Made by a program: the position numbers and the translations under genes. Below, one piece after another: positions 3,739-64,000 of a DNA stretch of 64,000 bases. Under the pieces are notes generated by a model. That model was not told where the DNA came from. It did not search any database and saw nothing but the letters and a program-made list of their open reading frames with translations. Where the stretch lies: assembly GCA_903813345.2 (NCBI GenBank), contig CAIIXF020000006.1, positions 3,865,096 through 3,929,095 on the forward strand, written 5' to 3'. Every line of letters begins with the position of its first letter. Position 1 is the first letter of the stretch. The DNA is from Owenia fusiformis (taxonomy: Eukaryota; Annelida; Polychaeta; Sabellida; Oweniidae).

Positions 3739-5672
3739 GGAAACCATATAGCTTGTTATCTGGATCTTGAATTTTAATTCAAGGGAAACCATGTCGAATA
3801 GCTTGTTATCTGGATCTTTAATTCAGGAAAATCATGTTGAATAGCTTGTTATCTGGATCTTGAATTTTAATTCAAGGGAAACCATGTCGAATAGCTTGTT
3901 ATCTGGATCTTTAATTCGAGGGAAACCATGTTGAATAGCTTGATATCTGGATCTTTAATTCAAGGGAAACCATGTCGAATAGCTTGTTATCTGGATCTTT
4001 AATTCGAGGGAAACCATGTTGAATAGCTTGTTATCTGGATCTTTAATTCGAGGGAAACCATGTCGAATAGCTTGTTATCTGGATCTTTAATTCAGGAAAA
4101 TCATGTTGAATAGCTTGTTATCTGGATCTTGAATTTTAATTCAAGGGAAACCATGTCGAATAGCTTGTTATCTGGATCTTTAATTCGAGGGAAACCATGT
4201 TGAATAGCTTGATATCTGGATCTTTAATTCAAGGGAAACCATGTCGAATAGCTCGTTATCTGGGTCTTCAATTTAAGGCATATGTACCATGTCGAATAGC
4301 TTGTTATATGAATCTTTAATTGAAGAGAAACCATGTTGAATAGCTTGTTATCTGGATCTTCAATTTAGGGCAAACCATGTCGAAAAGCTTGTTATTATCT
4401 GGATCTTTAATTCAAGGAAAACCATGTTGAATAACTTGTTATCTGGATCTTTAATTGAAGGGAAACCATGTTGAATAGCTTGTTATCTGGATCTTCAATT
4501 TGAGGCAAACCATGTTGAATAACTTGTTATCTGGATCTTTAATTCGAGGGAAACCATGTCAAATAGCTTGTTATCTGGATCTTTAATTCAGGAGAAATCA
4601 TGTCGAATAGCTTGTTATCTAGATCTTTAACCCTTTCCCGACGTGAATATAAGAGGAAAATGTTGGCCCTGGTGACGGATAAGTAAGAGCAGTTTTTAGG
4701 GGAAAACTGAAAATTACCTATGCCCAGGGACCTACACCTTGAATTTTATCACTGAAATACATTTTTTAGTAAGGACTATCGTATTAGAACAACTTGTCAA
4801 AATTTGGTGTAAAAATACTGAACAGAACTGGAGATACTATCATTTCATCGATGTATATAAATAAAAATTATGGTGCCAAAAGGAGCCTATCGTCCTGAAA
4901 GGTATTACATAATAGGGCTCCATATGGAGCCCATCGTCGTGAAAGGGTTAATTCAAGGGAAACCATGTTGAATAGCTTGTTATCTGGATCTTTCATTCAA
5001 GGGAAACCATGTTGAATAGCTTGTTATCTGGATCTTCAATTTAAGGCATACCATGTCGAATAGCTTGTTATCTGGATCTTTAATTCAAGGGAAACCATGT
5101 CGAATAGCTTGTTATCTGGATCTTTAATTCAAGAGAAACCATGTTGAATAGCTTGTTATCTGGATCTTTAATTCAAGGGAAACCATGTTGAATAGCTTGT
5201 TATCTGGATCTTCAATTAAGGGCAAACCATGTCGTAAAGCTTGTTATCTGGATCTTTAATTCAAGGGAAACCATGTTGAATAGCTTGATATCTGGATCTT
5301 TAATTCGAGGGAAGCCATGTTGAATAGCTTGTTATCTGGATCTTTAATTCAAGGGAAACCATGTTGAATAGCTTGTTATCTGGATCTTCAATTTAAGGCA
5401 AACCATGTTGAATAGCTTTTTATCTGGATCTTTAATTCAAGGGAAACCATGTTGAATAGCTTGTTATCTGGATCTTCAATTTAAGGCAAACCATGTTGAA
5501 TAGCTTGATATCTGGATCTTTAATTCAAGGGAAACCATGTTGAATAGCTTGTTATCTGGATCTTCAATTTAAGGCAAACCATGTTGAATAGCTTTTTATC
5601 TGGATCTTTAATTCAAGGGAAACCATGTTGAATAGCTTGTTATCTAGACCTTTAATTTAAGGGAAACCAATA
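3739..5672. repeat. Minisatellite array, ~44-bp unit
   Basis: About 35-40 tandem copies of a roughly 44-base unit with the core CCATGTTGAATAGCTTGTT followed by ATCTGGATCTT. Two unit types recur, one with TTTAATTCAAGGGAAACC and one with TTCAATTTAAGGCAAACC; they alternate in the 3' half, suggesting amplification of a dimer. A further substitution, GTTGAA versus GTCGAA, is scattered through the array. The array is broken once by a 317-bp MITE. The short open frame at 3592-3777 runs into the repeat and is not a gene. Confidence 0.95.
4631..4947. mobile_element. piggyBac-type MITE inserted in the minisatellite
   Basis: A 317-bp insertion interrupts one minisatellite unit and is flanked by TTAA on both sides (4627-4630 and 4948-4951). 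Its ends are inverted: CCCTTTCCCGACG on the left and CGTCGTGAAAGGG on the right, one mismatch in 13. TTAA target duplication with CCC-starting inverted ends is the signature of the piggyBac superfamily. It has no transposase frame. A subterminal direct repeat near the right end (GAGCCTATCGTCCTGAAAGG, then a near-copy ending the element) adds internal structure. Confidence 0.88.
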
Positions 5673-17950: not shown

Positions 17951-19343
17951 CACCACCAAGAAGTGGTGACATATTGTTATGGTCTCTGTTTTTTGGCGGC
18001 GGTTGGCGATCGGCGGGTGGCGGTCGGCGTCTGTAACTGTAACAAATTCTTACAACTTCCAATAACTTAACATATACTGTTTAGACTGACTTTAATTTTT
18101 TCTAAATCGCCCGCAAGTTTTCAGAAGTTCAAATCTGACTTTACATTTTAGATTTGACCTTTAATGACCTTTTCAAGGTCAAAAAAGTTTAAAAAAGGTC
18201 AAAAAGGTCTTCCTTCAACTTGCCTCAAATTGACCAAATATTTTTGTCAAAATCATCTACAAGTTTTTTTTTTGTTTTTTTTTATAAAATCAAACTTTAT
18301 TAATAAACATATTTTACATTACATGCATACAATAAGATAAAATACAATTATAGAAATTTCAAGTTACATTACATCTTTCTGATCATTATTTCATTATCAA
18401 AAATAGCTTTTACATTACTAGCTGTATTGACCCTTTTTTTAAAATCATGTATAGCTTTTTTAATTACCAATGTTTTAAGTAAATCTTCTTTTTTAACAAT
18501 TGCATTTCCAATTTTTTGATCATTTGTAACTTTTACATCATCCCAAATTGATTTAATACAGTCACAATTGATAAAGAAGTGGTCAATGTCATCTTTTACA
18601 TGTGCGTTACAAAAATTACAGATGTCAGAGTTTTCAATGTTACATTTCTTCAAATAAATATTTTGAGGGTAAATACCATGTAAAATTTTCCATTGAATTA
18701 CCAAAAGGGTAGTATCGGTTGTACATTCAAAAAATTGAGACCAGACTTTATCGTTTAGAATCTCACCATTAAATTTTATGTCACATTTTCTCTCTAAAAC
18801 AACTTTTGTTCTCACAATTCTTGTGTTTAAAAGATGGCTCTCAATGCCTTTAAAAAATAATTTTGTACAAGGAGTTTCCATTTCATATTTTCATCATCTA
18901 CAAGTTATCAGAAAATCAAATTTGACTTTAGATTTAAGATTTGACCTTCAATGACCTTCTCAAGGTCTTCAAATCGACCAATTTGTTTTCAAAAACATCT
19001 ACAAGTTCTCAAAAGTTCAAATCTGGTATAGATTTGACCTTCAATGACATTCTCAAGGTCAAAAAAAGATTTGACCTTCAATGACCTTCTCAAGGTCAAA
19101 AAAGGTCTTTTTTCAACTTGCTTCAAATTGACCAATTTATTTTTTCAAAATCATCTGCAAGTTCTCAGAAAGTTCAAATCTGACTTTAGATTTGAGATTT
19201 CACCTTCAATGACCCCAGGGTCAAAAATTGACCAATTTATATTTTCAAAATCATCTACAGACTTTTCAGAAATTCAAATTAAATCTGACTCAAGATCAAA
19301 CTAATAATATTGTGAGCAACTAGGTGGTGACATTTTGTCATGT
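17951..19343. mobile_element. Repeat element with GGTGGTGACA-type ends and TGACCTT...CAAGGTCA tandem motifs
   Basis: The segment begins with CACCACCAAGAAGTGGTGAC followed by ATATTGTTATGG and closes with ACTAGGTGGTGACATTTTGT. Between these it carries degenerate tandem units with TTGACCTTCAATGACCTT, CTCAAGGTCAAAAAA and CATCTACAAGTT. A 5'-truncated LINE has inserted into one unit. A partial relative occurs near 43985-44150 (GTGACATATTGTTACAGCC). No transposase is recognisable; class unknown. Confidence 0.6.
18266..18892 (-). pseudogene. 5'-truncated LINE (non-LTR retrotransposon) ORF2 C-terminus
   Basis: Minus-strand frame 18369-18881 (170 residues) matches in pattern the zinc-binding module that follows reverse transcriptase in non-LTR elements (zf-RVT): W-K-I-L-H-G-I-Y-P then C-N-F-C...H-x3-H-F-F-x-x-C. 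The frame ends at 18369, followed by a short 3' UTR with AATAAA (18296-18301 read on the minus strand) and an A-rich tail (T-rich on plus, 18266-18290). A 14-bp target duplication, ATCATCTACAAGTT, flanks the insertion exactly (18252-18265 and 18893-18906). The reverse transcriptase and endonuclease parts are missing: a classic 5'-truncated, dead insertion. Confidence 0.88.
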
Positions 19344-29843: not shown

Positions 29844-30613
29844 TAGACTAAGTTCTTCGCCAGCTAAAATGTCACTCGACTTTTTTGCAAAAAACCTTCC
29901 AAAAAGTAACAGTCGCATTAATTCACATTGTCGTACTTACAAAATGATCCACCGCCTAACTTATGCACCATCGAACTCGGTAATATTGTACACGTAACTG
30001 TTAATTACCGTAAATTCCCATAGAAAACTGGGTTTGCTTTTCAACATTTCAAGCGAAAATTCTCTACGGAGCTTTTGTTTTTCTGACGTAATTTCTTCTA
30101 AGAAATCGGTGCCGTGATAGGTTCAGTTCATCTTATTTCGCAAGGGGTGTCATCTATTTAGAATATTTATTTTCATCTTGTCCAGTCCTATATACAACCA
30201 TGGGCTCTAAAGCCCATGATACAACCTGCCCTTATCCTTTTCGCTTGTAAAACCGCGTAGTAATGTTGAAATTATGGTATAGATTCTCTGAGAGTGGCGA
30301 CATGTCTGCATCTCTACCATCTTGCGTTTGACACCCTTCGTTTTGGGCGAGTCCAAGTAAACCGCACATCCATGTGATTAGAAAATAGACATTTTTCAAG
30401 AAAATTCGAGCGGTGAGACAGATTACTCTGGTCAAACTGAGTTTTTGACGAAACTTATGAAAGAATCAATAAAAGGTAAGTGATATACATTAGGCAAATG
30501 CCAAAAATTAAACATGGCGCCAATTTGAAACTTCAGAATGCCTTCTGTGATTCAAAATCACAATAAAAGTCGAGTGACATTTTAGCTAGCGAAGAACTTA
30601 AAGACTAGTCTAT
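29844..30613. repeat. 44-bp inverted repeats flanking a 0.7 kb segment
   Basis: The sequence AGTTCTTCGCCAGCTAAAAT running on into GTCACTCGACTTTT at 29851-29887 recurs inverted at 30564-30600 with one or two changes (AAAAGTCGAGTGACATTTTA, then GCTAGCGAAGAACT). TAGACTA (29844) and TAGTCTA (30605) extend the ends. Either terminal repeats of an element or a duplicated promoter-proximal block. Confidence 0.7.
30199..30218. repeat. Short perfect palindrome CATGGGCT...AGCCCATG
   Basis: CATGGGCT and AGCCCATG are separated by four bases. A longer relative occurs at 52813-52839 (CCATGGGCTCT...AGAGCCCATGG). This may be a shared end motif of a repeat family, or a terminator-like hairpin. Confidence 0.6.
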
Positions 30614-30715
30614 ATGTTCGTTTTTTATTTATCGCTTTCAATATCGGTGATGATGTCCGACCGTCAACTCAAATCCATTAGGCTTACAGCCTGAGCAATA
30701 AATAAATGAGTAGGC

Positions 30716-31040
30716 AGGGACGTAGCCAGCAAAGGGGGTGCAATTGATCTTTGGGGTTTGCATTGATGCGAGCGAAACCAATCCCCGGGGGGTTCACTGT
30801 TACAAAATTCTGCGGGAGTCCTCAGCTGAGCCCTCAGATATCAAAGGCCCGTAGTCAGAGTTTTCCAAGGGGGGTTCACTTTTCAAAAAAATTCTAGGGG
30901 GGGTTCACTTTGGTAAATTTGACAAAAATCACCCAAAAATAGTCGGAATGGTGAAAAACTGCATGATTTTGAAAGAAATTTTGGCCAGGGGGGGGGGGGT
31001 TCGCCCGAATCCCCCTGAACTCCCCCTGGCTACGGGCCTG
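30716..31040. mobile_element. GTAGCCAG/GGGGTTCA-family repeat, composite copy
   Basis: Ends are inverted: GGCAGGGACGTAGCCAG on the left, CTGGCTACGGGCCTG on the right. The internal GGGGGGTTCACTTTTCAAAA and CTGCATGATTTTGAAAGAAA recur in the copies at 13228-13410 and 43303-43500. An internal GGCCCGTAGTCAG suggests one element inserted in another. Confidence 0.7.
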
Positions 31041-31097
31041 TATCAATATGTTCCCATAGGAATCTGTTAAATTTCAATGTGTTCCCTAACCAACCAT

Positions 31098-31203
31098 AAT
31101 AAGGACAAAGGCCATACCAAATGTCCAATTATAAGACCAATGCCACACCAAATGTCCAAATACAGGACCAATGCCATACCAAATATCCAAATATAAGACC
31201 ATG
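31098..31203. repeat. ~33-bp tandem repeat, about three copies
   Basis: Repeats of ACCAATGCCATACCAAATGT followed by CCAAATATAAG. The minus-strand frame at 31086-31271 is a by-product of it. Confidence 0.8.
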
Positions 31204-32101
31204 AGGTCTTGATTGAAAAAGATTTTGATCATGGAATATATGTTGACTCTCACTTGTAAGTTGTAAATCAAAAAGTGATTAATATTATTATGCTAACTCT
31301 GTTATCGCACATCAAAATAAAACAATTTTCTATCATTTTCTGAATGAAATAAAGTGTGAAATGCACGTTGATTCAATTTTAATCGACACATTGGCTTCTT
31401 TTTCAATTTTTATCCACCTGGTTTATTTTTCGTTTGAATGACGACCATTAGTGCTGATTAACCCTTGAAATTTGCCCAAATCACAGGTATTTATTCTTTC
31501 TAAATTCACAAAATTTAATCTCTGCCAATTTTCCAATTTTGCCCAATTCGCAATTAAATCACGCCAAGTTTAGTTGACTAACTGTATTTTATTTTAGAAA
31601 AATGTATGGGATCGATGCTAAAATTACTCCAATTACTTGATGGAGAAACGTTCTAAAGGTTCACTGCACTTCTTCTTCTATTACAGTACAGACTCCTCTT
31701 GAGGATATTTCGTACTATGTGTGCTTGCCTGTGGTGTATATACAATTGTAGTGTGAATGTGCATTAAAATTTCTAAAATCATTTTATTGTTTTCCCCTTA
31801 ATAACTGATGATATGTCTGCCGGGTGCAAGGTCAATACCTTGACTCTATTCTCTATATTTCAGGAAATTTAACCTCTCTAATTCAATAGGTTTAAACTTG
31901 ATGTCAAATTTGATGAATTCAAAAAAAATGGAAGAACCCATGTAAACCAATGGGAATTGCCTGGATTGTGATTATAAAAAGTGTGAAGTACATTTTACCT
32001 GTATTTTAGTTTGTGATTCTAATTTTATTTTTGATTCCAGTAAAAAACAATGAAAACAGGAAGATCATCAAAAAAATGAATCATTCAAAGAATTTGTAAT
32101 C

Positions 32102-33232
32102 ATGTATGGGAGTATAATCCAAATTTTATTAACGGGAGTCTTATTCTGTCTCACTGTATTCCCCATCAATGCAAACCACTTTGATCCACATGTGTACCCC
32201 AAGCACGGACCATTCTTTGAGGGATGGTATGTAAGAATCTCAGGGCTTAGGCAGAATAGATCTTTTGGAATTCTGTTCGGAAAAGTTTTACCAGATAGTC
32301 AAGAAAAGGCTAGGGATACCGCATTGGCCAGTGTTTTGATATATGATCCAAAGCACAGTGACAAGTTAGTGTCATATGATCTCTTTGCAAATGATACTGA
32401 TGTGAATGTCACAGTGAAAGGTGGCAGATCAGTGACTCATGACCCTGACTTTGAAAGCCCTGCAGATTTCAGATGGGAAATTAAAAACGCATGTTACTTG
32501 GAAGTAAAGCCAAATCGATCAAGGATTCATTTTGCTATTGGACCAATCATTGTAGATGTAGCTTTGGGCAGTCCTGTGCCATGGGGTCGTAAAGGTGTTG
32601 GACCTGAAGGTTGGCTCGAACATTTCCCCCTACCCCTACATTGGTTCGTCTTCAGCCTTCGATCACCTGTCATATCATATACAATAGAGAACAAGGACAC
32701 ACACATGATTTATAAAGGAGAAAATACAGGAGTTGCCCACATGGAAAAGAACTGGGGAAATAGTTTCCCTAAAGCTTGGATATGGAGTGAAGGAGTTGAT
32801 GTTAAGACAAACATCAGTTTCGCTCTTTCTGGTGGGCCTGTTAATTTCTATGATATCATCACCATACCTGGATATTTGATTGGCTATCGCAACCCTTTAA
32901 AAGGATTCGATCTTTCATTCAGACCCGTAGACAACTTGATTGAATTGATTCACAATGATGGATGCAATGGAGAAATAGCTGTAAAGGCAGTGGGAATTTA
33001 CTATAGTGTTCACTTTTATATCTCAGCCAAAATTGGAACATTCAGTGAGTGTTTATATGGGCCAGAGACAAATGGATTTAGGAAAGCCTGCACCGAGAGC
33101 TATAATGCTAAGGCTAACATATCTGTGTATAGACTAGGGACTCTGGTAGATACACACACCATACACAATTCAGCCCTAGAATTTGGTGGTGATTTTGTTT
33201 GTAGGAAAAGATGCAAACAGGCCTTCACTTAA
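32102..33232 (+). CDS. Secreted tocopherol-cyclase-like protein, intronless
   Basis: A single 376-codon frame without introns, in contrast to most neighbours. The first 24 residues form a signal peptide (hydrophobic I-I-Q-I-L-L-T-G-V-L-F-C-L then I-N-A-N), so the product should enter the secretory pathway. The body has the two best-known blocks of the tocopherol cyclase family: H-G-P-F-F-E-G-W-Y at 35-43 (plant VTE1 has F-F-E-G-W-Y-F-R) and M-E-K-N-W-G-N-S-F-P-K-A-W-I-W at 214-228 (VTE1 has A-E-K-N-W-G...F-P-x-K-W-x-W). Six N-glycosylation sequons are visible (N-R-S, N-D-T, N-V-T, N-R-S, N-I-S, N-I-S), which fits secretion. In plants and cyanobacteria this fold closes the chromanol ring of vitamin E; animals are not known to make tocopherol, so the substrate is unknown. 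Cysteines are concentrated near the C-terminus, with C-R-K-R-C close to the end. A candidate 5' UTR intron ends at 32040. Polyadenylation signal at 33961-33966. Confidence 0.9.
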   Translation: MYGSIIQILLTGVLFCLTVFPINANHFDPHVYPKHGPFFEGWYVRISGLRQNRSFGILFGKVLPDSQEKARDTALASVLIYDPKHSDKLVSYDLFANDTDVNVTVKGGRSVTHDPDFESPADFRWEIKNACYLEVKPNRSRIHFAIGPIIVDVALGSPVPWGRKGVGPEGWLEHFPLPLHWFVFSLRSPVISYTIENKDTHMIYKGENTGVAHMEKNWGNSFPKAWIWSEGVDVKTNISFALSGGPVNFYDIITIPGYLIGYRNPLKGFDLSFRPVDNLIELIHNDGCNGEIAVKAVGIYYSVHFYISAKIGTFSECLYGPETNGFRKACTESYNAKANISVYRLGTLVDTHTIHNSALEFGGDFVCRKRCKQAFT

Positions 33233-33960: not shown

Positions 33961-33966
33961 AATAAA
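33961..33966 (+). terminator. Candidate polyadenylation signal for the 32102 gene
   Basis: AATAAA about 730 bases after the stop codon. If used, the 3' UTR would include the repeat at 33374-33734. Confidence 0.4.
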
Positions 33967-34322: not shown

Positions 34323-37033
34323 ATGTGCTATAGAAGAGGAGCAGTTGTCATCTCCAGTGGGATGGCATCCCCAGCTTTACGCAGGTTAACTGGCCTACTT
34401 AGACCATGTAGCAGGTGTATGTCTGTCAGAGCTCTCCAAAACAAGGATAAAGGTGGCTTTAGAGAAAGTGGATACCTCTTATTGGTAAGCTATGCTTTTC
34501 ATAGTATCTTAAATGTATATAATATACATTTGTATTATATATACAAGTCACTGGATTCTTTCCTGATTTTGAAAAGAATACATTTTTCTTCTAATGCCTC
34601 ATTCCTGGTAGCCTGATCTCATTATTGATCAACTGCTAATGTTATTAGAATGCTTTCCTACAGGACGCGGGTTGCACATTAGTGTATCATCCTTGCATGC
34701 AATTCATGCCACATTGGTGTATCATCCTCTACATGTTACATTTTTCCCCATAGGTTCTACCTGCTGCTGCATTCGGTCTTGGCTGTTGGCAAGTAAAGAG
34801 AAGATATTGGAAGCTTGCACTCATCAGTGACTTGGAGGAGAGAACTCTAGCAGATCCTGTAGCTTTACCAGATGAGTGAGTAGTGTTTAATAAGCCATGA
34901 GAAGTCCATCAATATTATATTTGCACATAAAGAGATGGTGATACCATTCTTATTTCTCTCTTTAGATAGATTTTAGCACTTCTGTGTTATGCTGCTTTTT
35001 ATTATATATATTTTAAATCATGGCATGGAAGTATTATAGCGATCTGCATCTACATTAGGGCTATAGTAGATCATATATAACTTGGGCAGATTGGACAAAT
35101 AATTTGATGACATGATGCTTCCATTCTCTTTTAGCCTAGATGATCTGAAAGAGCTAGAGTACAGGAAGGTGTTGCTGAGGGGGGAGTTTGACCACAGCAA
35201 GGAAATCTACATGGTGCCTAGGTCCCTAATAGAGGAACAACCAAACAAGGGGTTCATGTCTGGGACAATGGCAGACACTGGCAAAACAGGAGTACATGTT
35301 GTCACTCCATTCAAGCTTTCCGACAGAGAGTAAGTTATACAGATTCCTCATGAATTGTTTCAACATAACCAATATGATTTGGAAAACATTTTTGTATTAG
35401 CTGACAGCTATTAATGTAATCCAATAAATATAGTATTACACAAAATACATGATTTACCTATTTTGCAAGGGCAGAAGAGATGGGTTATTTGTAAGAACAA
35501 ACAAATTTTGAACCAAAAAATGCATTAGGAAAAGGTGACATTTGTCCCAATACCATGGGAAAATATTAAATATATCACATACATTGTACATGTAATAGAG
35601 TCATTTTATATTCCACAGTTTGACTATCTTAGTAAATCGTGGCTGGGTCTCAAGGGAGAGAAATGACCCAAAGAAGCGTGCTGAAGGCCAGCCAGAGGGT
35701 GTGGTGGACCTGATAGGGGTTGTCCGCATGAATGAAAAGGTAGAAGACTTACTTGTTACATAAATTTTGTAATTTATTATCTATTAAATAATGAATGTTT
35801 GTCAAATTCTGAAATTGTCAGAGGTAGGCAAAGCTACAAAGCTACAAAGGCCATTCAACAAAATTATATCTTTGAGCAAATTATAAATATGTATAAAACA
35901 AGTAGGGGTATCTTACAACTGGAATACAGTATGTGTTTTATTTGCTTAAAATACAGTGAAAACTAAATGTTTTTCTTACAATATTCAACTGAGTTCCCAA
36001 CTTCCTAAACATTCAGGACTTATTTTTCAGAGACAACAATTTGCTCCAAAAAATCTTGATACAAAGAAAGGCCAGTGGTATCACAGAGACATCTATGGGA
36101 TGGCTGCCACACTAGAAACAGACCCAATATTTGTGGATGCTGACAGAAGTAAGTGAACCATGAGCTAAGGTGCAAATCTTTTGGGTTCAAATATTTTGGA
36201 TTGCAGATATTTTGAGTTGCAAGTTTTTGGGTTGCAAATATCTTGGCCTAAATAAGTTGTCAATAATGATACATCATGTATATTATTTAAAAAAAACTCT
36301 GATTGGGTATTTGTATTGTATTCCTGTTCACAGCTTTTAAAATGAATTATTGAAATGTTCCTTCAGGTTGTACAGTGAAAGGTGGTCCAATAGGAGGACA
36401 GACTAGAGTCACTTTAAGAAATGAACATTTATCTTACATATTTACATGGTAAGTTTATTATATCATTTCGTTTTACACTCAAATATAAAAAATATTATGC
36501 AATAGTGCCGAATTAACAGAATAGTTAAATGATAAAATTATAAAATCTCTGTTTTCTAAAGGAGTATTAAGAGTTTTATGACAAAGAAGCAGTGAGATAA
36601 TTGTTATAACTGCCATTGTTACAAGTTTCAGTGTTTTGGCAGAATGACATCTGTAGCAATTGTTACACTTTTCAACTTTTCAATTGGTGACATTTTGTCA
36701 ATTCAGTGTCTTGTTATTCCATAATTTTCGTTAAAATTGGTAAGGAACAAAATTCATTACACTATACATGACTACACATGACTATACATGACTACACGTG
36801 ACTATACATGACTATACATGACTACACATGACTACACATGTACCTACATGTACATGTATATCTTTTCAGGTATAGTATACACTGAACTAATATCTTTGGA
36901 GTTCTACTTTACACTTTACTTTTATGTTTGCAGGTATACCTTAGCAGCATTGATGTTCTACATGTGGTACAAACACTACTGGAAACCCCCTCCTGCCTCA
37001 ACTATAGCCACTTATATGAATAAGAAAAGATGA
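34323..37033 (+). CDS. SURF1: SURF1, mitochondrial cytochrome c oxidase assembly factor
   Basis: Seven exons: 34323-34484, 34754-34875, 35135-35329, 35619-35739, 36031-36148, 36367-36448, 36934-37033. The spliced frame is 900 nt, 299 residues, against 300 in human. SURF1 sits in the mitochondrial inner membrane and helps insert heme a into COX1 during complex IV assembly. The N-terminus is rich in Arg and Ser without acidic residues (import signal). The first membrane segment, about residues 50-65, ends in the conserved G-C-W-Q-V-K-R-R; then come [33 protein letters not shown] and [17 protein letters not shown]; the second segment is [12 protein letters not shown] near the C-terminus. An in-frame second ATG at 34362 could be the start instead; both leave a usable import signal. 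AATAAA at 37045-37050 lies only 12 bases after the stop. Confidence 0.97.
36767..36850. repeat. CATGACTACA microsatellite in SURF1 intron 6
   Basis: Roughly eight copies of a CATGACTATA/CATGACTACA decamer within the last 170 bases before the exon 7 acceptor. Confidence 0.8.
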
Positions 37034-37109: not shown

Positions 37110-38215
37110 ATGTATTTTGTGCAACACAAAGGATTATGTTCATATTGTATTAAGTACAGGGGATTATGTTCATTAATAATGTATTAAGAACAGATGATTA
37201 TGTTCATATTGTATTAAGTACAGATGATTATGTTCGTAATGTATTCAGTACAGAGGATTATCTTCATATTGTATGAAGGACAGAGGGTCGTGTCTATAAT
37301 GTATTAGGTACAGAAGTTTATGTTCATATTGTATTAAGTACAGAGGATTATCTTCATAATGTATTCAGTACAGAGGATTATCCTCATATTGTATTATGTA
37401 CAGAGGGTTGTGTACATAATGTATTAGGTACAGAAGTTTATGTTCATATTGTATTAAGTACAAAGGATTATGTTCATAATGTATTAAGTACAGAGGATTA
37501 TCTTTATATTGTATTAAGTACAGAGGATTATGTCCATAATGTATTAAGTACAAAGGATTATCTTCATATTGTATTAAGTACAAAGGATTATGTTCATGCT
37601 GTATTCAGTACAGAGGATTATCTTCGTATTGTATTAGGTACATAGGATTATGTTCAGAATGTATTCAGTACAGAGGACTGTCTTCATATTGTATTAAGTA
37701 CAGAGGATTATGTTCATTATGTATTCAGTACAGAGAATTATTTTCATAATGTATTAAGTACAAAGGATTATGTTCATAATGTATTCAGTACAGAGGATTA
37801 TTTTCATAATGTATTAAGTACAGAGGATTAAGTTCATAATGTATTAGGTACAGAGATTAATGTTCATAATGTATTAAGTACAGAGCATTATGTTCATATC
37901 AAATCCAGCACAGACAATTATGTTCATGATGTTTTGGTACATAGGATTATGCCCATGATGCATCTGGTACAAAGAATTATGTTCATGATGTTTTGTGTCC
38001 ATGATGTATCTGGTACAAAGGCTTATGTTAATATTTTAGCCAGTTCAGAGGATTGTGTTAATGATGTTTTGATACAAAGGATTATGTCCATGATGCATCT
38101 GGTACAAAGAATTATGTGAATATTTTATCCAGTTCAGAGGATTGTGTTAATGATGTTTTGATACAAAGGATTATGTCCATGATGTATCCAGTAAGAGGTC
38201 TGTATAGGCATGACA
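37110..38215. repeat. Minisatellite, 30-bp unit with 60-bp higher-order pattern
   Basis: About 36 tandem copies of GTATTAAGTACAGAGGATTA followed by TGTTCATAAT, beginning directly after SURF1. Units alternate between TGTTCATAAT and TCTTCATATT variants over much of the array, giving a 60-bp period; the last 300 bases are more diverged (CATGATGTATCTGGTACAAA). Open frames at 37365-37583 and 37934-38119 are repeat translations, not genes. Confidence 0.95.
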
Positions 38216-58900: not shown

Positions 58901-60052
58901 CTGTTAAATGATAAAATGGCAAGAATGAGTGGCTGTATTATCACGTTTTCATTCATTTTAACTGAATTGGGATATTTTCGTAAATAATTGATGTGTTGAT
59001 AAAAAATAAAACCTTACAACTATGACTTCAATTACGAAAAAATTAAACACACTTCGCTTGTCAGTATCAAGTGAACGACATCTATGTTCTTTTTAACAAT
59101 GGCAGAGAACGGGAAGCCAGAAAGGGGAGTGTCGATATCCGGCTTTGAATCGATCATAATAGGCTATAACAAGTGTGGACATCACGATCCAACACATTCT
59201 TCTCTCGCTTTAGGCAATATGAGGTGAATTGCATGTTACGAGAACATTCCTTTCATCTCCCATAACGTTATTGTACAAATCAGTAACATAACGCGTCTGT
59301 TAATCAGAATATTTAAAAAAATATCAGTCTTACTGAATTTTTATTAAATCATATTCCTATAATTTTTCGGTTCAATTCTTTCATTCAGAGAGGGGGAAGG
59401 GTGTGGTTCTCTTTGTTATCTTACTCACCTTTATTATGAGAACAGTGTTACAGTATATGACAAAGACCACTGTTAGCAGCCCAACCGACCCTATCATTGC
59501 AACTGTTACTGCATGGACATCGGTGAACCTTCCCGGAGCAAACTCATACGAACATATCTTATTCTCATCGTAGTATCTATACGGAGCGGCGGCTCCGAAC
59601 AATGGCAACGACAGCTGAGCAAGCGTCAGTGCCCATGTGAATCCTAGAATCCCCGCCACTTTGCTGATTGTAAATTTCTGTTGGTAAGTGATTGGGTATT
59701 TCACTGAGATGTACCTACAAAACGTCATAATCGTCACTATCCACGCTGACCATATCGTTGATGTTGTGCTCATCCAGCCCATGAGCATGCAACCATAGTA
59801 CCCTCCAACTGGCCCACACTGGATGCTCGACACCAGCCACATCGAAAATAACATCAACGTACTCACGAAGTCATTCCACGCTAACGTCTTCACCAAGAAA
59901 TGGTTCACACTCTGCTTCTTCCCCGGCATTTTATGAAGAATCGCCAAGGCTGTTAGGTCCATTATTAATGTCACCACAATGATAAATATAACTTCCTGTT
60001 CTGTAATATCAACCATACATTTATGTGTGGCATTCGTTGTTCCATTTGCCAT
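55931..60052 (-). CDS. Class A (rhodopsin-like) GPCR, paralogue A
   Basis: Three minus-strand exons: 59429-60052, 56433-56576, 55931-56149, giving 328 residues. Exon 1 covers an N-terminus with two sequons (N-G-T, N-A-T) and TM1-TM5; exon 2 the third loop and TM6; exon 3 TM7 and the tail. Seen: N-D at 60-61 in TM2 (Asp 2.50), C88 before TM3 and K-I-C-S-Y in loop 2 (disulfide pair), F-C-R-Y at the end of TM3 in place of D-R-Y, and N-P-L-L-N-P-I-I-Y in TM7. TM6 ends C-Y-G-P-F. The L-P-L-F-G...C-S-Y-E-F loop 2 and the intron at the end of TM6 recall prostanoid receptors, but the TM7 Arg those use for the ligand carboxylate is absent. Ligand unknown. Intron 1 is 2.85 kb and holds two MITEs. The gene lies on the opposite strand just past the last visible RFX6 exon. 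Confidence 0.9.
56978..57744. mobile_element. 767-bp TIR element in GPCR-A intron 1
   Basis: Left end GACGTGTCGCAAAAAGGT with CGCGCATGCATT, right end inverted as AATGCGCCACCTTTTTGCG followed by ACACGTC; about 30 bases of terminal repeat with few mismatches. No coding frame; the frame at 56981-57163 begins in the left end and is not a gene. Confidence 0.82.
58200..58820. mobile_element. Tc1/mariner-like MITE in GPCR-A intron 1
   Basis: Inverted ends of more than 30 bases: AGGGTGGGCCAAAAAAACGC on the left, GCGTTTTTTTGGCCCACCCT on the right, each continuing with CACTTTTTTT. TA follows the right end directly; the matching TA at the left end is not clean. About 620 bp without transposase. Confidence 0.85.
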
Positions 60053-61329
60053 ATTGACAGACTACTGTGCCTGCTCTTTCCAGGATCTCTACAGCTAATG
60101 TGCCGTATAATTAAGTACGAAAGTCGTTTGTTCAGATTCTCGAAATAATCCCCCGATGAGGAGTGAGCAATTGTTAGTTAATCTCTGCTTTATTCTGTTC
60201 AACCAGCATCCGCATTTAACTTCTTCGCTTCGTTTCCCATTAATGCCATTTGGCTTCAATCATTTTAAGTGACGAAACGAAAAAGAAAGATAGAAAAATC
60301 ATAAATGCCTGAAGTATGCCTCTCTCTTGTCCACGCTTTACAAAATTATTCCTAAAAGTACTATGGTACTTCTTTTCACCCATAGTCTATAAGTATTAAT
60401 GGTAGGCCTGATCATCATATTTAACAACGTATCTATGTGTTCTTTGTTTGTTCGTGCAAGCTGTATTGATATTTGATTGCTCGATGACATTTAGCGATGG
60501 ACTATTTTATTTATATATATTCATGAAGATTGCATGTGATATCCTTTCGTCATCTATCTTCTAGTATTTTGAATTTTTAGGGAATAACAACTTAATAAAA
60601 TTTTACAATGAAATTAAGTCTTAATGAATGCTAATTTTAGCATTCGTTTATTCAAAGATTTCAATTCATTATTTTTCTCCTGATAATACGTTATTCTATC
60701 ATTCTTCACTGTAAGTTAAGGGAAGCATTTGCATCAGCTAGTAGCTTTACCTTAATTAGGCACATCGCTGATTTTAAGAGGATTCAGAATCCGAATTATC
60801 AATGTTTCCCTTACAATTGCGATACCTGATCAAGCTAGTAAGCTCTCCATATTAGAAATATAATTATTCGTTTATGAACGGAAAAAGACACCGAGCCTTT
60901 TAAGATAAACAACAAAATAAAACTAATACTTTTTCTCTTTCATCAGTTCAGGTAGATTTATTAATAAAATTCTTTTTTTGCAAAATTACATACACAAACA
61001 AATGCAATGATAAATAAATACAATATAAAATAACCTAGGATCACGGAGTGTCATCAAAAGATTTGTCCACCGTTGGGAGCATGCTATTTTTCATAGAACA
61101 CAATAAGAAAACTTCACAAATTATTTTTAAGTTATATACAGTATTTAGTTTTTCCAAACTACATTTTGGAGGAGAGAAAATGTCAAACCCCCTTTCCAAA
61201 TTGACACGTTCAACAGCTTTATTTTTACTCCTAGCGTCCCCAACGGTGGACAAATCTTTCGATAATGCCCCATGAAGATAAATACATCCTTCATATCAAT
61301 TGCCAACTCTTTTTCACAGATGACGTTAG
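60053..61329. other. Interval between GPCR paralogues A and B
   Basis: Contains the upstream region of paralogue A and the 3' flank of paralogue B. The frames at 61041-61253 (minus) and 61048-61275 (plus) cover the same bases; both ends carry a short inverted repeat (TGTCATCAAAAGATTTGTCC near 61049 and GGACAAATCTTTCGATAATG near 61249), so this is a ~220-bp foldback-type segment rather than a gene. Confidence 0.55.
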
Positions 61330-62738
61330 TTACACCGTTTCACTATTTGTGTTCGTGGTAACATTCGTCATTGGTGTTACGTCATTTTTCTTTAAACAAC
61401 AACTGCATAACTTTGAGACGAGGTATTGTCTATATTGTTTATTGAAAAAAATATAAACGATTGGATTTACAAGCGGGTTGATGAAAACTAAAGCCGTTGA
61501 GATCGTGTCTTCAATCCCGGAGACGGTTTTCTCATTTATTATCGAATCAATCACCAATCGGACCTAGAAAGAAATTAAGGAAGTCATGTTGGAAACTGTA
61601 ATTATCCTGTACACTCTGAGTTAAAACAAAATTAAAGTGAATTATGGACATTTACAACAATTCTCAATCTTCTGTTATAATCAAGCCTTAGAATCGTAAA
61701 TAATTACACAAAGGAAGCTTCACTTTGCAATATAGCCTCGATTTGGATCGCTAATTGTTCAGGAAATTATGTGTTGTGAATTTGGTCAAGGATATTTAAG
61801 AGGGCAATGATCGATGTTACTTTAGTACACGCAACTTACTAAAAATGGTCCATAACATATTGTGTAAGCTCCTGCTACTGCTGCAGTTGTTCGAGAGACA
61901 GACGCAGTTTCATTTCTTTGAGAGCCCTGCGTTGCAGTTGTTGCTGGTTTATTATTCCGTTTACGCTGGTTGACCTGTAAATGAATGGCAAACTCGGAAA
62001 TGAGATTTACTTACATGTACTACTACGTTCTAGACTATCAACCAATGCTTTTTCTTACATGAGTTGTTGTATTCAAGAAGTACTTACTTGATATACTATG
62101 CTGATATTGCAGTATATGACTATAATGATAGTTCCAATGCCATATGCTCCTAGAAATCCAACCGTAACTCTATGAAACATTCCATAGTTTCCCGCAGAGA
62201 AGTCGTAAGAACAGATCTTATTTCCTGCATAAAACCGAAATGGACCTGCAATTCCATATAACGGTAGGGACATTTCGAATAATATCCACACAAAGCTTCC
62301 ACAGAGGCTTATCAAAATTTTCTTCTTCGTGACAGAGTGTCTGTAAAATATTGGTTTTGACACGGACATGTACCTACAAAGATTCATAGTTGTCACTACT
62401 GCAGCTGACCATATCACCAGTGTGCTTGTGATCCAGCCAGTAATGGTGCATCCGAGTTGACCTCCAAATACCCTACAATTACTGACATTGGCGACCCACT
62501 GTGCAAGTATAAATACAGTTGTGACCAGATCGCTTACAGCTAGAATCTTCACCATCATCTGGTTTATGGTACTCTCTTTAGTAGGCATATTGAATAATCC
62601 TAGAACTGACACTATATTTGCCATAAGTGTAATGATCAAAATGATCGGTAGTTCTTGCTCACGGAGGTCAAATTTGCAATCGATCGTATAAATTTGACCT
62701 CTCCTTATTTCGGCAATTGTCATATTGGATTCATCCAT
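61330..62738 (-). CDS. Class A (rhodopsin-like) GPCR, paralogue B
   Basis: Three minus-strand exons: 62088-62738, 61840-61974, 61330-61563, giving 339 residues. Intron positions and phases equal those of paralogue A: after TM5 (Q|V) and at the end of TM6 (G-P-F-L|V-R-L). Seen: sequon N-M-T at the N-terminus, A-V-S-D in TM2, Cys before TM3 (G-G-Q-L-G-C), L-C-R-Y in place of D-R-Y, loop 2 N-K-I-C-S-Y-D-F, TM6 ending I-C-Y-G-P-F, TM7 N-P-L-V-N-P-I-V-Y, then F-F-N-K-Q-Y-R-Q-Y as helix 8 and a Cys-rich segment (possible palmitoylation). Loop 2 L-P-L-Y-G-I-A-G-P-F-R-F-Y resembles the prostanoid loop pattern. Introns are short (113 and 276 bp), unlike paralogue A. Ligand unknown. Confidence 0.92.
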
Positions 62739-63295
62739 GTTTAAGTATAAACTTTACCTGCTGACCATTCGCTCCTTGCGTAGTTTGATAATTATACGTT
62801 ATCAAGAGCTATTTAAGACTGCTTTGGAAAGGATAATTGTCCTCATTGATCATGGTACCATTGTTGTTTCTGTTAAAAAATAATGCATTTAGCCTAATGG
62901 TCCTTTGTCTAAATACACAATAAGTGGTATGCCCTTTTGTCAAGTGAATCACAATATCATTTGATCAATTTGAGAGCCATTATCTTAAATGATCTGCTAA
63001 AAGAATTCCCTTTATTCCAATAATATAGACATTTTCTCCAATTACAATTCTGCTCAAGACAAACAACATTTAGAACGAGGATCCACCCCATATGAATATG
63101 TATTATTAATTGCCAACTTTTACTAAAAAAGAATATGTCTCAAATCTCAAGATATAGATAATTTGCATTAAATTTGAAATTATATTAAATTTTCAGCAAG
63201 ATGTTCTGATTTTAAAGATGTTTGAATATAGAATGTCAAATGTAAAATGTAAGTAAGGCTCTCTATATCACGAGGACAAATACATAGTAGAAGGA

Positions 63296-63634
63296 CTATG
63301 GAAGGAAGGCAGGTATGGTGCAGTGAAAAAAACAACTAAATCGTGCATGGTGTTGACCCCCAAATACCCTACAATTACTGACATTGGCGACCCATTGTGC
63401 TAGTATTGATACAGTCGTGACCAAATCATTTACAGCTAGAATCTTCACCATCATCTGGTTGATGGTTCTCTCTTTAGTAGGCATGTTGAATAATCCTAGA
63501 ACTGACACTATATTTGCCATAAGTGTAATGATCAAAATGATCGGTAGTTCCTGTTTCCGGAGGTCAAATTTGCAATCTATCGTATAGATCTGACTTCTCC
63601 TTATTTCGGCAATAGTCATATTGGATTCATCCAT
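63296..63634 (-). pseudogene. Truncated duplicate of GPCR-B exon 1
   Basis: The first 94 codons match GPCR-B with six amino-acid changes (for example S-D to N-D in TM2, S-T-I to R-T-I in loop 1), through N-C-R-V-F-G-G-Q. There the similarity stops abruptly at 63352 and 18 unrelated codons lead to a stop. Only TM1, TM2 and the start of loop 1/TM3 remain; no TM3-TM7 sequence lies between it and GPCR-B. Similarity starts only a few bases before the ATG, so the copy includes neither the upstream flank nor the rest of the gene. Not a functional receptor as it stands. Confidence 0.85.
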
Positions 63635-64000
63635 GTTTTAACACAACTACTATCTTCGTACTGTTGCTTTTAGTAAAAGAACTCTGTTTTTGTCATAAGA
63701 AATAAGATATTTTGATCACTTTTTCTAATATCACGTAATGTTCACGTTTCATAAGATGTAAGATGGCATGATATTTTGTTTATTTCAGTAATCAAACTAC
63801 ATTAGGAACAAATAAATCGATCTGATCATACCATTTCTTTGTTTGAAACACCCGTTAGTGGAGTGCACCTCTTGCAATTAATTTGAATCGAATCCCATTA
63901 CACATCAACGTTCACCCTTTCATCGACCATACCTATACATTAATGTCCATGTGGCTCTGATTTCAAAGTGCACATCAAATGATCAACCTAGGTCATACAT
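63635..64000. other. Right-edge flank
   Basis: Upstream flank of the truncated GPCR copy; no gene or repeat recognised. Confidence 0.5.

Follow-up and report, generated by a model that had tools for sequence, protein, structure and literature searches.

A probably secreted, His-type member of the tocopherol cyclase family in Owenia fusiformis, with exported relatives in scattered bacteria

The window, a 64,000-nucleotide stretch of an Owenia fusiformis contig, contains at 32102..33232 on the forward strand a single ATG-to-stop frame of 376 codons encoding a protein of the Tocopherol_cycl family, which we call P0001. The coding region is uninterrupted by introns and lies between multi-exon genes, as the earlier note on this DNA had described. 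For comparison, when the 64 kb were shuffled 30 times by mononucleotide and read in six frames, stop-free stretches reached at most 160 codons. The match of P0001 to the Pfam profile PF14249 spans profile positions 2–335 of 335, indicating that the coding region is complete and that no exon is missing. A GTAAGT donor and a TTTTTGATTCCAG acceptor delimit a possible intron in the 5′ untranslated region (30476..32040, +), and a candidate poly(A) signal, AATAAA, one among several, lies at 33961..33966 (+). The gene is present in one copy in the window. It is flanked by animal nuclear exons, identified by Pfam scan as GOLGA2/GM130, queuine tRNA-ribosyltransferase, RFX and class A GPCRs; a B-box match among the neighbours is weak and falls below its cut-off. 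An Rfam search of the window at gathering scores gave no match.

Several other features were observed in the window. At least three related GPCR-like exons lie at 59384–63637 (−), two of which were scanned against Pfam. The exons at 62076–62753 and 63299–63637 (−) are near-identical over approximately 95 residues, which points to a recent tandem duplication, and the latter diverges from the common sequence after that stretch. An open frame of VLSTEDYVHNV-like repeats at 37277–37642 (+) is probably a minisatellite read in frame. A stretch at 34362–34487 (+) that ends near a GTAAGC donor is a possible first exon of another gene; it has no Pfam match, and its putative product resembles a mitochondrial presequence by eye. 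A zf-RVT fragment (reverse transcriptase zinc-binding domain) at 18372–18890 (−) is the remnant of a retroelement.

In base composition the P0001 gene resembles part of its surroundings. Its GC content is like that of the adjacent animal exons, and its CpG observed/expected ratio is 0.32, compared with 0.12–0.28 for the exons of GOLGA2, QTRT1 and the B-box gene. The GPCR exons lie above P0001, at 0.65–0.80, and the two RFX stretches have ratios of 0.88 and 0.43. In invertebrates, CpG depletion is often a sign of methylated, broadly expressed genes. The depletion of the P0001 coding region thus suggests a gene that has long been resident and is in use, and it also argues against contamination. 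Along the window (1–64000), the ratio per 2 kb is mostly 0.1–0.5 over 1–28 kb and 32–38 kb and 0.6–1.1 over 28–32 and 38–64 kb, a mosaic such as invertebrate gene-body methylation is expected to give.

The N-terminus of P0001, MYGSIIQILLTGVLFCLTVFPINA, is hydrophobic, with a best 10-residue hydropathy of 2.81, and a helix is predicted at residues 2–19 of the structural model. Residues 1–24 (32102..32173, +) are a putative signal peptide with an estimated cleavage site after ...INA, and P0001 is probably a secreted protein. It contains six N-x-S/T sequons, at residues 52, 97, 102, 138, 237 and 339; shuffles of the mature protein give an expectation of 2.1, making this a modest excess (P = 0.012). 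P0001 is probably glycosylated. Both the signal peptide and the six sequons had been reported in the earlier note and hold up under these measures, and the two blocks it named, F-F-E-G-W-Y and E-K-N-W-G...F-P-K-A-W-I-W, are present. The FFEGWY block occupies residues 38–43 (32213..32230, +). The second block, HMEKNWGNSFPKAWIW, occupies residues 213–228 (32738..32785, +) and carries His213 where the published YxEKNWG motif, described as conserved in photosynthetic organisms (PMC4963081), has a tyrosine. An ALEFG block that includes Glu360 is recognized in the alignment at residues 358–362 (33173..33187, +). Two cysteines, Cys288 (32963..32965, +) and Cys367 (33200..33202, +), are likely partners, judged by their co-variation over 26 aligned sequences described below.

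Profile search assigns P0001 to the tocopherol cyclase family. Residues 37–363 match PF14249 (Tocopherol_cycl) with E = 2.2e-12 and 47.2 bits, above the cut-off of 26.6, and this is the sole Pfam-A match. The same profile matches all nine members of an alignment, A3, composed of P0001 and the eight closest bacterial proteins (L018–L025), at E ≤ 0.01. An NCBIfam search with P0001 gave no match, and sequence searches of the PDB gave a single chance match at E 0.26 and no sequence-profile match. The structure of P0001 was predicted with AlphaFold2 from 45 sequences, yielding a model composed mostly of beta strands with a mean pLDDT of 89.4 and a pTM of 0.88. Foldseek aligned this model to 18 PDB chains at E ≤ 0.001, all of one double lipocalin-like class: AttH NE1406, CghA, Fsa2, Phm7, the ‘two pericyclases’ entries, kievitone hydratase and 25-phosphosteroid lyase. 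The E-values range from 7e-12 to 8e-6 at 9–14% identity, and the TM-scores are moderate (0.39–0.60). As a control, we modelled a Planktothrix protein (L033) that scores 543 bits against PF14249; its model has a pLDDT of 93.9 and matches 22 PDB chains at E ≤ 0.001, representing the same proteins except CghA, which was found with P0001 only. P0001 thus belongs to the Tocopherol_cycl family and is predicted to have the double lipocalin-like fold of cyanobacterial tocopherol cyclase; in both respects the profile search and the models bear out what had been proposed from the conserved blocks. A fold match to P0001 was also observed for an uncharacterised Catovirus protein in BFVD (A0A1V0SB04, E 1.6e-10).

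Relatives of P0001 were sought in bacterial, viral and plasmid collections. Scans with the single P0001 sequence found no relative in viral contigs, plasmids, phages or bacterial genomes. The genome_contigs collection was scanned with the pattern EKNWGx[SG]FP, which returned 207 stretches, 102 of them encoding relatives of P0001, and the best 80 were kept. Eight of these, L018–L025, match P0001 almost end to end, with 27–31% identity and E-values of 9e-43 to 2e-25. They are followed by a gap, the rest of the best 80 of 102 starting at E 2e-10. This second tier consists mostly of cyanobacterial, clostridial, actinobacterial and similar proteins. One of its loci (L027), whose alignment is restricted to residues 147–228 of P0001, belongs to the first tier as a split copy: at 3863–4480 of a contig from Elusimicrobia UBA11697, the subfamily gene is divided over two frames, as a pseudogene or by a sequencing frameshift. 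In viral contigs, scans with the motif, with alignment A1 and with alignment A3 found no relative. The 17 viral stretches containing EKNWGxxFP look by eye like chance matches, many of them within long repetitive frames; the frames extracted from them do not match P0001 at E ≤ 10.

The eight closest relatives mark a subfamily that is scattered among bacteria. Using a profile built from A3, calling membership at E < 1e-40 and counting the seed genomes, we found the subfamily in 9 of 58 genomes of the phylum of L023, 9 of 290 (L025), 3 of 297 (L024), 3 of 247 (L021) and 1 of 282 (L019). It was found in none of 296 genomes of the phylum of L047 (Bacteroidota), none of 194 of that of L033 (Cyanobacteria) and none of 276 of that of L056 (Actinomycetota), the phyla being taken from titles. 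The lineages in which it was detected are Bdellovibrio-like bacteria, Desulfobacterota, Myxococcota and Elusimicrobia. Two source labels, Betaproteobacteria for L018 and Proteobacteria for L020, are doubtful, as both loci fall in the phylum of the Silvanigrella locus L023; the three have a common gene layout by size. For six of the eight loci (all but L020 and L023), we scanned 20 neighbouring proteins. They include CheW, MCP, HypD, NifU, peptidases and others, and three were assigned to no family. These are ordinary bacterial genes, so the loci they flank come from bacteria and are not animal DNA binned by mistake. The six neighbourhoods contain no operon that hints at a substrate.

To describe the subfamily we aligned 26 sequences, namely P0001, L018–L025 and 17 found with the profile, together with 75 other members of the family. 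One of the 17, L107, is counted in the subfamily despite a profile E-value of only 5e-26. Position 213 is histidine in all 26 subfamily sequences and tyrosine in 71 of the 75 others, and position 361 is phenylalanine in 26/26 versus 3/75. The four remaining His213 sequences (L026, L115, L116 and L118), predicted lipoproteins from the phylum of L019, have HxEKNWG without the cysteine pair and branch apart from the subfamily (100/99). Three glutamates are kept across the family: Glu215 and Glu360 in all 26 subfamily sequences, Glu360 also in 75/75 others, and Glu40 in 25 of 26 and 75 of 75. In sequences from the pattern scan, EKNWGx[SG]FP is fixed by the search pattern itself; this does not hold for the 17 found with the profile, to which no motif filter was applied. 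Among these 17, Glu215 and Glu360 are retained throughout, whereas Trp218 is replaced by Tyr in five, Gly219 by Gln in one, and Lys216 is altered in two, which shows that the motif can vary. Of the 26 sequences, 22 have both Cys288 and Cys367 and four (L025, L107, L124 and L133) have neither; none has only one of the two. We infer from this co-variation a disulphide that would be lost as one unit.

The subfamily is also distinguished by predicted export. With a hydropathy threshold of 1.8 at the N-terminus, 24 of the 26 sequences pass; L132 also passes when read in the correct frame (2.19), and L023 is just under the threshold at 1.79. Several bacterial members are predicted lipoproteins. Among the best 80 of 102 relatives in the pattern scan, 2 of the 72 other sequences pass the same rule, L065 and the predicted lipoprotein L026. 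Three Tyr-type proteins found with the profile (L119, L130 and L134) have hydrophobic, signal-like N-termini (2.65–3.14), suggesting that export arose or was retained outside the His type too. Thus every His-type sequence looks exported, and not every exported sequence is His-type. P0001 itself has the export signal, HxEKNWG, LEFG and the Cys288 and Cys367 pair. The earlier note had the protein moving to the secretory route in animals. Such a move need not have taken place: all 25 bacterial sequences have signal-like N-termini, counting L023 just below the threshold, so export appears ancestral to the subfamily and not an animal invention.

The relationship of P0001 to the bacterial proteins was analysed with trees confined to P0001 and bacterial sequences. 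L027, L060 and L079 were omitted, and 58 of 78 sequences remained after clustering at 80% identity. In the resulting tree, P0001 and L018–L025 form one clade (100/99), with P0001 sister to the eight (98/92). The cyanobacterial sequences form a clade of their own (100/100), separate from that of P0001. Two further trees sampled bacteria more widely. The exported clade is supported at 100/100 in both, with 26 members in one and 25 (P0001 and 24 bacterial sequences) in the other, from which L107, L119 and L130, present in the first, were left out as long branches. Three profile-found sequences, L111, L112 and L120, are not in the trees. With wider sampling P0001 falls inside the exported clade, beside the group of L018, L020 and L023 (83/81) in the 26-member clade, and with that group and L102–L106 (81/80) in the 25-member clade. 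Forcing the 24 bacterial sequences together without P0001 costs 13.9 log units and is not rejected (p-AU 0.078). The branch of P0001 is long, at 1.44, 1.92 and 2.02 in the three trees.

That P0001 nests within a bacterial subfamily speaks for its having been transferred from bacteria long ago. This is the simpler reading of the trees, though not a proven one, and it points to no particular donor; the long branch of P0001 and its position as sister to the eight in the 58-sequence tree count against it. The acquisition by transfer suggested in the earlier note is therefore favoured by the nesting, and the AU result of 0.078 leaves it short of proof. The alternative, that P0001 arose by retroposition from an animal family member with introns and did not arrive intron-free from bacteria, we consider unlikely. 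An intronless coding region between multi-exon genes and the plausible candidate intron in the 5′ untranslated region would suit a retrocopy, but an intron-free coding region is equally expected of a bacterial gene. An assembly artefact, in which bacterial DNA was joined into an animal contig, is nearly refuted: the best relatives of P0001 are indeed bacterial, though drawn from bacterial, viral and plasmid collections only, but animal exons flank the gene on both sides, its CpG depletion and GC content are those of the adjacent animal exons, and its identity to any bacterial protein found is only approximately 30%.

Comparison with known proteins places P0001 near, and apart from, the tocopherol cyclases. 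With VTE1/SXD1 of plants and cyanobacteria it has in common the full-length PF14249 match and the FEGWY, EKNWGxxFPxxWxW and LExG blocks, and its predicted fold is the same as that of the cyanobacterial enzyme. In contrast to the plastid or cytoplasmic VTE1/SXD1, P0001 is predicted from its N-terminal hydropathy to be secreted. It scores 47 bits against PF14249, where the Planktothrix protein scores 543, it has HxEKNWG in place of YxEKNWG, and it possesses an extra cysteine pair. The bacterial relatives of P0001 also differ in having no match to NF009525 (see below). Tocopherol cyclase-like proteins of non-photosynthetic bacteria have been described as a group of 19 sequences (PMC4963081), which, as presented there, have the EKNWG and FPxxWxW motifs in common with P0001. 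The clostridial and similar sequences in our alignment have Tyr and mostly no export signal, whereas the P0001 subfamily is a separate clade. A limited search of the literature found no description of the exported or His-type subfamily.

Other animals have the domain too. The entries for Acropora digitifera in PMC3750612 include tocopherol cyclase (K09834), and in Table 2 of PMC6214176 the Tocopherol_cycl domain appears in all the stony corals examined but in neither sea anemone. These coral proteins, known as table entries only, are likened to P0001 as animal proteins with the domain or the KEGG number. The patchy animal distribution fits transfer or loss.

What might a secreted protein of this family do? 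Based on the features above, our somewhat favoured proposal is that P0001 is a secreted, probably glycosylated His-type member of the Tocopherol_cycl family, derived from bacteria and acting on an extracellular lipid. An animal ancestor would have gained the gene from a bacterium whose protein was already exported. P0001 would fold in the secretory pathway, and its two halves would enclose a hydrophobic pocket. There, Glu40, Glu215 and Glu360, with His213 and the tryptophans, may catalyse an acid-base reaction, whether ring closure, hydration or elimination, whose substrate would be an extracellular isoprenoid or another hydrophobic lipid. The enzyme reading is preferred because the acidic residues are kept and the fold relatives are mostly enzymes. 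By title or review, all of them except AttH are enzymes of ring closure, hydration or group elimination. The lipocalin-like Diels-Alderases CghA, Fsa2 and Phm7, kievitone hydratase, 25-phosphosteroid lyase and AttH NE1406 have the fold class in common with P0001, but their reactions differ and they have no sequence-profile match to it. In the portions of the tocopherol cyclase literature consulted, we found no experimentally proven residue. The change from Tyr to His in a motif proposed as catalytic speaks for a reaction different from that of tocopherol cyclase, or for a different substrate.

An extracellular acid-base enzyme acting on an isoprenoid-like lipid is thus the function we judge most likely from the model and alignment, and a lipid carrier or scavenger is its main rival. 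Such a protein would bind a hydrophobic ligand in its double lipocalin-like barrel outside the cell, without catalysis. This is possible, if clearly the lesser prospect. Transport of bound hydrophobic compounds is given as a typical lipocalin function (PMC9055775), the fold class includes the uncharacterised AttH NE1406, and several bacterial members are predicted lipoproteins, as carriers often are. On the other hand, the three glutamates are retained in nearly every subfamily sequence (Glu215 and Glu360 in 26/26, Glu40 in 25/26) and likewise in nearly all 75 other members, and Fsa2 and CghA, at first thought to act by binding, are reported to have turned out to be enzymes (PMC9055775).

A second rival reading is that P0001 is a true chromanol-forming cyclase: from prenylated hydroquinones it would make vitamin E-like compounds or marine meroterpenoids by closing a chroman or chromene ring. 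Its family and fold speak for this. So does a review that lists chromanol-type compounds from sponges, ascidians, soft corals and nudibranchs and in which corals, sponges and tunicates are said to form chromanol rings (PMC9078042); these reports make the chromanol hypothesis worth testing. Yet histidine replaces the motif tyrosine throughout the subfamily, and the identity of P0001 is approximately 30% to its exported relatives and approximately 20% to the cyanobacterial enzymes. A further argument against it comes from the bacterial genomes that carry the exported gene. We searched them with NF009525, which we take to be homogentisate phytyltransferase of the tocopherol pathway. It was found in none of the eight, all of them MAGs by title and of unstated completeness. 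The one added cyanobacterial control genome was positive, but all 14 built-in control genomes fell below the cut-off, so the sensitivity of this search is gauged from a single genome. We therefore regard a chromanol-forming cyclase as improbable. Vitamin E synthesis in particular is made unlikely by the absence of an NF009525 match from eight genomes with the gene; together with the His-for-Tyr replacement this led us to set it aside, and P0001 is not expected to make vitamin E. A substrate different from that of the plant enzyme, as the earlier note had supposed, is probable.

These results show that one Pfam name covers both the tocopherol cyclases of Tyr type, with their kin, and a separate, exported subfamily of His type that scattered bacteria and an animal have in common. 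Animal genes of this kind should accordingly not be filed as vitamin E genes, and HxEKNWG, a signal peptide and paired cysteines are marks by which they can be sorted. Chromanol ring formation is reported for several invertebrates (PMC9078042), and P0001 is a concrete candidate protein for isoprenoid chemistry that invertebrates would carry out outside their cells. The most specific form of this idea, that a captured bacterial exported His-type enzyme now acts outside invertebrate cells on prenylated hydroquinones, closing their chroman or chromene rings, is a speculation that we rate as very unlikely to be correct. If it were true, animals would have a chromanol chemistry of their own without the plant vitamin E pathway.
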